Source: Flavobacteriaceae bacterium (GTDB lineage: Bacteria; Bacteroidota; Bacteroidia; Flavobacteriales; Flavobacteriaceae). Taken from it: a DNA stretch of 50,936 bases. Below the pieces are notes generated by a model. It was given only the letters and a program-made list of their open reading frames with translations. It had not been told where the DNA came from and searched no databases. Below are positions 31,033-32,238 of this stretch, one piece after another. Location: contig JAHDGB010000002.1 in NCBI GenBank assembly GCA_020627885.1, positions 1-50,936 of the forward strand, written 5' to 3'. Made by a program: the position numbers and the translations under genes. How positions within the stretch are numbered: position 1 is the first letter of the stretch; each line of letters starts with the position of its first letter.

Positions 31033-31641
31033 ATGGCTTTTGAATTACCAAAATTAAAATATGCTTATGATGCCTTAGAGCCTCATATTGATGCTCGTAC
31101 AATGGAAATACATCATTCAAAACACCATCAAGGCTATACCAATAAATTAAATGCTGCTATAGAAGGGACTGATATTGCAGGAAAGGGTATAGAAGAAATC
31201 CTTACTAATTTAGATATGAATAATAAAGGTGTTAGAAATAATGGAGGTGGATTTTATAACCATTCTTTATTTTGGGAAATAATGAATCCTGAAGGTAAAG
31301 GGCGTTTGTCTGGAGACTTAAAAGATGCTATTGAAGCAGCTTATGGCTCTTTCGATGCTTTTAAAGATGCCTTTAGTAAAGCCGCAGCAACACAGTTTGG
31401 TTCTGGCTGGGCATGGTTATGTGTACATAAAGGCGGTAAAGTTGAAGTATGCGCTACACCAAATCAAGATAACCCATTAATGCCTAATGTTTCTTGCGGG
31501 GGTACTCCTATACTTGGGTTAGATGTTTGGGAGCATGCTTATTATTTAAATTATCAAAACAGACGTCCAGATTACATAGAGGCTTTTTTCAATGTTATTA
31601 ATTGGAATGAGGTTGAACGTCGTTATGTTGAAGCGAAATAA
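31033..31641 (+). CDS. Superoxide dismutase (Fe/Mn family, Mn-like)
   Basis: Converts superoxide to O2 and H2O2; probably cytosolic since no signal peptide is present. I start it at [20 protein letters not shown] (202 aa), the family N-terminus, and not at the listed upstream Met. Metal ligands are H in [13 protein letters not shown] in GFYNHSLFW, and D and H in [10 protein letters not shown]. The [16 protein letters not shown] segment has the Gly pair seen in MnSOD (FeSOD usually reads NNAAQ.WNHTFYW), so Mn or cambialistic use is likely. A long palindromic terminator follows. Confidence 0.95.
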
Positions 31642-31659: not shown

Positions 31660-31723
31660 AATCAACTAAAAAATAAAACCAGCTAGTTATGTATAACTAG
31701 CTGGTTTTATTTTTTAGTTGATT
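31660..31723. terminator. 31-bp perfect palindrome, bidirectional terminator of sod
   Basis: Two perfectly complementary 31-nt arms around a 2-nt centre (core CCAGCTAGTTAT/ATAACTAGCTGG), with T-rich outer arms. It starts 18 bp past the sod stop. Unusually long and perfect for a terminator. Confidence 0.85.
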
Positions 31724-31747
31724 CCTATAACAAAAACAATTATAAAT

Positions 31748-31818
31748 AAAAAAGGTGAACAGATGTTCACCTTTTTTGCCCCAAATCTACCATGAACTTA
31801 ACCTACTTATGTTATGGT
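31748..31818 (-). ncRNA. Putative small RNA, copy 1
   Basis: About 70 nt from a predicted start near 31818 to the T-run of a terminator (GGTGAACA-TC-TGTTCACC then T6 in RNA sense). The 5' part can form UACCAU/AUGGUA with a roughly 20-nt loop, joined by AGAUUUGGGGC to the terminator hairpin. Copy 2 at 32083-32156 is nearly identical from the TACCAT arm through the T-run, while the flanks are not similar. No start codon with a sensible ORF is present. I do not recognise an Rfam family by eye. Confidence 0.6.
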
Positions 31819-31823
31819 AAGTT

Positions 31824-31831
31824 CAAATATA
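31824..31831 (-). promoter_or_regulatory. Predicted -7 box of sRNA copy 1
   Basis: The minus strand reads TATATTTG, a perfect TAnnTTTG match, about 6 bp ahead of the conserved block. The aligned position in copy 2 is TATATTTA (32161-32168), one mismatch. Confidence 0.55.
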
Positions 31832-31873
31832 ATTAAGATAGAACTCTATTCCACTAAAATTAGTTAAACTGTC

Positions 31874-31892
31874 AAAAAATCGGTTTAACCGA
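31874..31892 (-). terminator. Minus-strand hairpin with T-run between the sRNA copies
   Basis: TCGGT/ACCGA stem with a 3-nt loop, followed on the minus strand by six T residues. It would stop read-through from copy 2 before copy 1, making the two units separate transcripts. Confidence 0.6.
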
Positions 31893-32082
31893 GTTTTCTG
31901 ATAAAAGATAAATATATCAAAAATGTTTTTTAATAATTTAGAGCATTAAATATGCTGAAGTATAATGTTATCTATATTTTAAAAGAATATATCTCTATGA
32001 TAAGATTTAATAGCTAGAATATAAACAGTAAAAAAATTTAATTTGTATGAGAAAAAGAGGCATTAAAAAAATGAATGTGTAT

Positions 32083-32156
32083 AAAAAAAGGCGAACAGAT
32101 GTTCACCTTTTTTTGCCCCAAATCTACCATGAACTTAACCTACTTATGTTAATGGT
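32083..32156 (-). ncRNA. Putative small RNA, copy 2
   Basis: Same unit as copy 1, starting about 80 bp past the purF stop. It differs mainly by one extra base in each of two positions and by GGC for GGT in the terminator stem. On the minus-strand RNA this keeps a U-G pair (GGUGAACA with UGUUCGCC), while on the plus strand it would be a C-A mismatch, which supports minus-strand transcription. It could be a free sRNA or the processed 3' end of the purF transcript. Confidence 0.6.
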
Positions 32157-32238
32157 ATTGTAAATATATACTTAAAATCAATACTAAAATAAAGTATTAG
32201 ATTAAACGCTATTATTTCTGTTTAAGTGATAAATCATT

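Follow-up and report, generated by a model that had tools for sequence, protein, structure and literature searches.

The window analysed here, a 50,936-nucleotide stretch of DNA from a Flavobacteriaceae bacterium, likely contains two redundant trans-acting small RNAs (sRNAs) that block translation of a microprotein, within one LytTR-type regulon. No RNA evidence is available for this reading. The sequence does establish conservation and synteny of the sRNA units, their promoter architecture, their complementarity to a target at a fixed position, and the co-occurrence of sRNA and target. Multicopy trans-acting sRNAs are already a known kind of regulator; what is new is this sRNA family and its partner microprotein family.

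Two putative sRNA genes downstream of purF

The features of the locus, in positions of the window, are as follows.

31033..31641, plus strand: Fe/Mn superoxide dismutase gene (sodA), the conserved convergent neighbour; Pfam Sod_Fe_N/C and synteny
31748..31818, minus strand: putative sRNA copy 1 (sodA-proximal), 71 nt, with predicted 5' hairpin, pairing core and terminator; family model 97.5 bits, fold z -4.8
31748..31777, minus strand: predicted intrinsic terminator of copy 1; family stem retained despite sequence changes in 259 of 262 distinct copies
31778..31813, minus strand: pairing core of copy 1 (AACATAAGTAGGTTAAGTTCATGGTAGATTTGGGGC); complementary to the target leader and almost unchanged across 268 copies
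31824..31831, minus strand: putative -7 promoter box of copy 1 (TATATTTG); TAnnTT at a fixed distance, with T at -8 in 268 of 268 copies
31858..31871, minus strand: proximal direct repeat of putative promoter 1 (CAGTTTAACTAATT); repeat pair with 20-bp period in 217 of 264 distinct family promoters
31878..31891, minus strand: distal direct repeat of putative promoter 1 (CGGTTAAACCGATT), 20 bp upstream of the proximal repeat; a 'separate hairpin' in the preliminary description discussed below
32083..32114, minus strand: predicted intrinsic terminator of copy 2; one U-G wobble, on the minus strand only; fold and family stem retention
32084..32156, minus strand: putative sRNA copy 2 (purF-proximal), 73 nt; family model 87.3 bits, fold z -4.4
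32115..32150, minus strand: pairing core of copy 2 (same sequence as copy 1, AACATAAGTAGGTTAAGTTCATGGTAGATTTGGGGC); near-invariance and target complementarity
32161..32168, minus strand: putative -7 promoter box of copy 2 (TATATTTA); TAnnTT at a fixed distance
32195..32208, minus strand: proximal direct repeat of putative promoter 2 (CGTTTAATCTAATA); family promoter repeat pair
32215..32228, minus strand: distal direct repeat of putative promoter 2 (CACTTAAACAGAAA), weaker; 20 bp upstream of the proximal repeat, adjoining the purF stop codon
32239..34137, minus strand: purF-like glutamine amidotransferase gene, the conserved upstream neighbour; Pfam GATase_6/7 and synteny

The two copies share 96% identity across 74 nt. 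A covariance model built from relatives' copies scores them at 97.5 and 87.3 bits, as against 21 bits for the next-best match in the window, and each unit folds better than all 200 of its dinucleotide shuffles (z -4.8 and -4.4). No family reached its cut-off in an Rfam search of the window, and the sRNA has no Rfam entry; sub-threshold matches other than FopS, which is discussed below (STnc40, sraA and miRNA models), were rejected as terminators or chance. A separate promoter and intrinsic terminator for each copy are inferred from sequence alone, transcription being untested. Just past sodA, at 31662-31724, lies a long, almost perfect hairpin with T-runs on both sides, likely a strong bidirectional terminator between sodA and the sRNA array.

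The pairing core of the sRNA reads AACAUAAGUAGGUUAAGUUYAUGGUAGAUUUGGGGC. Across 268 copies, the block TAAGTAGGTTAAGTTYATG has one variable C/T position and otherwise differs by only a single A; about 50 copies have one A inserted ahead of GATTTGGGG. Core position 25, immediately before AUGGU, is C in 183 and T in 85 of the aligned copies. Target sites likewise favour C- or U-type pairing at this position, and paralogous sRNAs may therefore prefer different target sites. The terminator stem changes freely in sequence, with 41 apical arms, yet still pairs in 259 of 262 distinct copies, as expected for an element kept for its structure only. In copy 2, the terminator includes a U-G wobble that exists only in a minus-strand RNA; the plus strand would have a C-A mismatch. 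The 5' hairpin is a model prediction without covariation support: 98.7% of its cells are canonical across copies, and no two-sided covariation was found among the aligned copies, whose sequence hardly varies. Because there is no two-sided change, the support for this hairpin is its predicted fold and a single divergent copy (L076, genome G017) with a different loop, the same ACCAUAA/UUAUGGU stem and the same AGAUUUGGGGC linker. A coding gene in the unit was rejected, given an unconserved frame, the A insertion in the core and variable terminator lengths.

An alternative explanation is that there is no sRNA gene here, only a repeated element or an opposite-strand transcript. Consistent with this, each unit, read on its plus strand, matches the target leaders in sense, and its terminator is almost symmetrical. 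However, the minus strand is indicated by promoter boxes whose distance is fixed in 268 of 268 copies and by a terminator wobble that pairs on that strand only, and the copies are syntenic rather than dispersed. We regard this alternative as virtually ruled out.

A preliminary description of the window, made without database searches, had proposed two near-identical minus-strand units of about 70 nt downstream of purF, preceded by TAnnTTTG-like boxes and bearing a terminator G-U pair possible only on the minus strand (GGC for GGT). These claims held, the boxes being TATATTTG and TATATTTA and the G-U pair lying in unit 2. A hairpin plus T-run thought to isolate the two transcripts did not hold up: CGGTTAAACCGATTTTTT (about 31874-31891) forms only a 4-bp stem, and since that stem coincides with promoter 1's distal direct repeat, a promoter element is a better interpretation than an insulator. 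Two further claims held in part, in that the flanks differ but include conserved promoter boxes, and the 5' hairpin is predicted by folding without two-sided covariation. The proposal of paired paralogous sRNAs acting on mRNAs is supported by conservation, the lack of an Rfam entry, the non-coding character of the units and a candidate target, with transcription inferred. A coding gene or known repeat, which would have refuted the proposal, is unsupported, the frame being unconserved and the copies syntenic; no Rfam family exceeded its cut-off, so no well-characterised RNA was matched. The nucleotide and covariation comparisons it suggested revealed a widespread family in Flavobacteriaceae, with the terminator stem retained and the 5' hairpin lacking covariation.

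Distribution and promoters of the sRNA family

A nucleotide search found the unit in most genomes of the same family, often as tandem copies about 200 nt apart. The covariance model matched 241 of 301 sampled Flavobacteriaceae genomes, and 213 of the 250 good ones. Six of 295 genomes in a class-wide draw matched, all of them Flavobacteriaceae; the filters were strict, and weak relatives were possibly missed. Conservation at the purF locus was assessed in 80 loci from named or binned organisms (Bizionia, Lacinutrix, Olleya, Winogradskyella, Algibacter, Gelidibacter and others). At least one unit is present in 79 of these and two units in 61, the sole exception (L223) being on a short contig. 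The gene order purF - sRNAs - sodA - UvrD/RecB-like helicase is retained in most loci, and examined loci carry between one and six sRNA copies. Additional copies, some with different terminators, were seen elsewhere on the chromosome (L070, L071, L079 and L081).

The T of the TAnnTT box is at -8 in every one of the 268 copies, and this fixed distance places the RNA 5' end near ACCAU. Two direct repeats with a 20-bp period are found in 217 of 264 distinct sRNA promoters (consensus GTTTATCTAAAA, with versions such as GTATTTCGTCCGATTA). LytTR-type sites consist of a direct-repeat pair of about 10 bp with a separation of about 11-13 bp, and the LytTR site of YpdB is GGCATTTCAT, occurring twice (PMC4847170). 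The period in the sRNA promoters is slightly below the 21 bp of YpdB, and GCATTTCAT resembles the YpdB GGCATTTCAT. From this resemblance only, and without binding data, we infer that the half-sites are probably bound by a LytTR-type response regulator. These genomes do contain LytTR regulators. In a same-genus genome, a LytTR response regulator gene (G001:C19:45877-46578, L014) adjoins the sRNA array.

Predicted pairing with the messenger of a microprotein

Repeated stretches of 25-35 nt complementary to the sRNA core occur at another conserved locus, which lies downstream of scoB with an ABC transporter gene opposite; initial weak, core-only DNA matches proved to be the opposite strand of this locus. 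Evidence for specific pairing came from 30 scoB regions, 24 from sRNA-bearing and six from sRNA-less genomes. In the 24 sRNA-bearing genomes, core pairing downstream of scoB averages -33.2 kcal/mol, as compared to -20.0 +/- 1.1 for shuffled sRNAs, whereas the corresponding means in the six sRNA-less genomes are -20.2 and -19.6. In genome G026, the scoB-downstream site is the best non-self site across 2.0 Mb. Target leaders resemble GCCCCAAAUCUACCAURAACUUAACCUACUUAUG, in which the final AUG is the start codon.

The open reading frame (ORF) downstream of scoB has 33-42 codons, encodes a product of the form ...NLP...LTKKxFML, and ends in LTKKxFML or similar. It was called in 20 of 24 sRNA-bearing genomes and in none of the six sRNA-less ones (Fisher p 3.5e-4), a value that is indicative only, since the genomes are related; the co-occurrence counts overstate independence for the same reason. 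Neither the complementary sites nor the ORF is present in any of the six genomes examined that lack the sRNA. Variant ORF endings occur in two more sRNA-bearing genomes (L089 and L113), two or three such genomes (G009, G002 and G033) have no target downstream of scoB, and core-target pairing is weak in the clade of G003, G013, G020 and G028. Differences among the ORFs are distributed 52/32/91 by codon position, most being at third positions, a pattern that is coding-like as inferred from the sequences. A search of Pfam and NCBIfam gave no match for the ORF. Members of the family, which occurs in many Flavobacteriaceae (L065-L069, L072, L073, L075, L085-L106 and L357), were missed by annotation. 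In genome G007 (L069/L095), the ORF is seemingly frameshifted with three sRNA sites intact, which could reflect a pseudogene, an assembly error or a sponge-only RNA.

Target messengers carry 1-4 sites (2-4 in most close relatives), with a mean of 2.55 versus 1.15 in shuffles across 20 genomes. One site lies across the AUG in 18 of the 20, usually at about -30 to +3; a second, at about +7 to +37, is usual, and a third, at about -61 to -32, is frequent. Even where genomes have diverged, the position of the start-codon site is exactly retained. Four sites, one of them at -30 to +3, and a GCATTTCATCGA box ahead of the microprotein are present in the window's own genome (L093, L357). The segments GUAGG and UUGGGG, suggested as seeds in the preliminary description, held up in part: the pairing region is most of the core, not these alone.

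In the proposed mechanism, two redundant sRNA copies would be transcribed from their own promoters (TAnnTTTG plus two half-sites 20 bp apart), and the sRNA core would pair with the leader and early coding region of the microprotein mRNA at one to four sites. With the stretch from -30 to +3 paired, the start codon would be inaccessible and translation would cease; as a site in this position covers the start codon, translational repression is the simplest reading, albeit an inferred one. The sRNA and its target would probably form a feed-forward or feedback loop in one regulon, given the similar box in their promoters. That the units are transcribed, that the effect is repression, which regulator acts and what the microprotein does are all inferred.

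Two other interpretations of the scoB-downstream RNA were considered. The first is that it acts mainly as a sponge, whose tandem sites titrate the sRNA away from other mRNAs in the regulon, with the short ORF being secondary. In support of this model, each RNA has two to four near-perfect sites, beyond the need of a simple target, and other box-linked mRNAs have weaker sites. However, substitutions in the conserved ORF follow a coding-like pattern, and the exact position of the start-codon site, even in diverged genomes, is as expected for translational control. We consider a mainly sponge role unlikely, although target and sponge roles might both hold. The second interpretation is a trans-encoded pair resembling type I toxin-antitoxin systems, with a toxic microprotein and the multicopy sRNA as antitoxin. 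The microprotein is short and cationic with a hydrophobic C-terminal half, the antisense pairing across the start region is long and near-perfect, and sRNA and ORF co-occur. Arguing against this, the two genes are not adjacent, the sRNA is vertically conserved at one chromosomal place with a regulator-type promoter, other mRNAs carry weaker sites, and no clear membrane segment is apparent by eye in the microprotein. In the absence of toxicity data, this explanation appears very improbable, and translational repression of the microprotein remains the preferred reading.

Known sRNAs, a possible wider regulon and significance

By analogy, the nearest functional counterpart is FopS of Bacteroides (Rfam RF04319), for which initiation is blocked at the start region (PMC11697453). 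Like the flavobacterial sRNA, FopS is a multicopy Bacteroidota sRNA of about 70 nt with a 3' terminator and a pairing region near the 5' end covering translation starts, and the two have UUCAUGGU..AGAUUU in common. Unlike FopS, the flavobacterial sRNA has a different genomic place, promoter repeats and main target, and SusC targeting is unsupported. A third alternative, that the present sRNA is a flavobacterial branch of FopS repressing SusC-type glycan transporters, draws on the UUCAUGGU-AGAUUU shared with the FopS consensus and on a sub-threshold Rfam score of 20.7-21.2 bits. However, that score falls far short of the 56-bit gathering cut-off, an equally good alignment was reached by 268 of 5000 dinucleotide shuffles, and the 17 SusC-like start regions of the window's own genome fall at the 21st-95th percentile of energies, none being strong. 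Moreover, no FopS match in this genome exceeds the cut-off, and its listed matches do not include the sRNA units. With the score, shuffle and SusC pairing tests all failed, neither FopS membership nor SusC targeting is supported, leaving next to no room for this alternative. The FopS partner RbpB is an RRM protein, and the own genome has one weak RRM domain match (24 bits).

Other systems share parts of this arrangement. Rfp18 of Flavobacterium psychrophilum is likewise a conserved flavobacterial sRNA thought to pair with mRNAs, but it is described as pairing with metalloprotease mRNAs through a third stem-loop, whereas the present sRNA has two hairpins (PMC9723704). The OmrA/OmrB and Qrr sRNAs of Proteobacteria are near-identical copies under response-regulator control, with redundancy and several mRNA targets. 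The flavobacterial sRNA resembles them in its copies and, by inference only, in redundancy, response-regulator control and several mRNA targets, and differs in having one target with tandem near-perfect sites; to our knowledge, there is no sequence relation between them. Type I toxin-antitoxin RNAs pair extensively in antisense with a microprotein mRNA, unlike the present system, in which the target is at a distant locus, the sRNA is multicopy with a regulator-type promoter, and weaker sites occur in other mRNAs. No description of the flavobacterial sRNA was found in the literature searched, although the F. psychrophilum Rfp catalogue (PMC9723704) might include the transcript under a number.

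Evidence for a wider regulon came from the promoters. Target promoters bear GYATTTCATCGA boxes similar to the sRNA promoter repeats. A promoter model trained on other genomes' sRNA promoters was run over 2.4 Mb of G026, for which gene-upstream pairing averages -17.0 and the best 1% is -25.4. Among its better hits are mRNA promoters followed by 170 nt that pair at -25 to -42; these mRNAs encode the microprotein, one large secreted protein and several more that are secreted or short. Other, equally scoring hits lack either a gene or pairing. The pattern is directly visible in leaders such as AGCCCCAACTAAATTTAACCTATTTATG, and mean pairing at 25 intergenic box sites is below that of all 200 shuffled sRNAs. 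When gene starts were tested on the basis of boxes, p was 3e-4, from six genes only. The window's own genome has seven box matches versus one in a reversed control, and the regulon test there gave no significant pairing signal without the microprotein mRNA. A fuzzy direct-repeat search yielded 62 matches versus 57 in reversed sequence, indicating that most loose matches are noise. On the plus strand of G026 (L232-L351) near 2150449, a direct-repeat promoter is followed by AGCCCCAACTAAATTTAACCTATTTATG and a 24-codon ORF, which might be a second microprotein target. The start region of a LytTR response regulator gene of G026 matches the core (rank 5 of 2082), with weaker pairing in G001 (-19.3); this possible target is suggestive in one genome, a lead rather than proof.

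We are confident of the single microprotein target and only tentative about the wider regulon, which in at least one genome seems to include mRNAs for secreted proteins whose sites are weaker, their pairing being inferred. A bolder reading, possible but not one we would yet favour, is a regulon of two layers spanning the Flavobacteriaceae. A single LytTR-type regulator would activate both the mRNAs and the multicopy sRNA, the sRNA core would be antisense to a shared leader (GCCCCAAAUCUACC...UUAACCUACUUAUG), and the microprotein mRNA would double as a multi-site sponge. If this is true, an anti-leader RNA holds the microprotein and a secreted-protein regulon in check.

Post-transcriptional control in Bacteroidota is known mainly from Bacteroides. 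Flavobacteriaceae are a large family of marine and freshwater bacteria, and they mostly lack Shine-Dalgarno initiation. About 80-85% of sampled Flavobacteriaceae have the sRNA, its core nearly frozen and its partner specific and testable, making an RNA family and a microprotein family that annotation has missed. The arrangement suggests how a group mostly without Shine-Dalgarno initiation can be controlled, by RNAs placed over the start codon. As inferred from sequence and without expression data, the sRNA is likely a conserved off-switch in an undescribed regulatory circuit.
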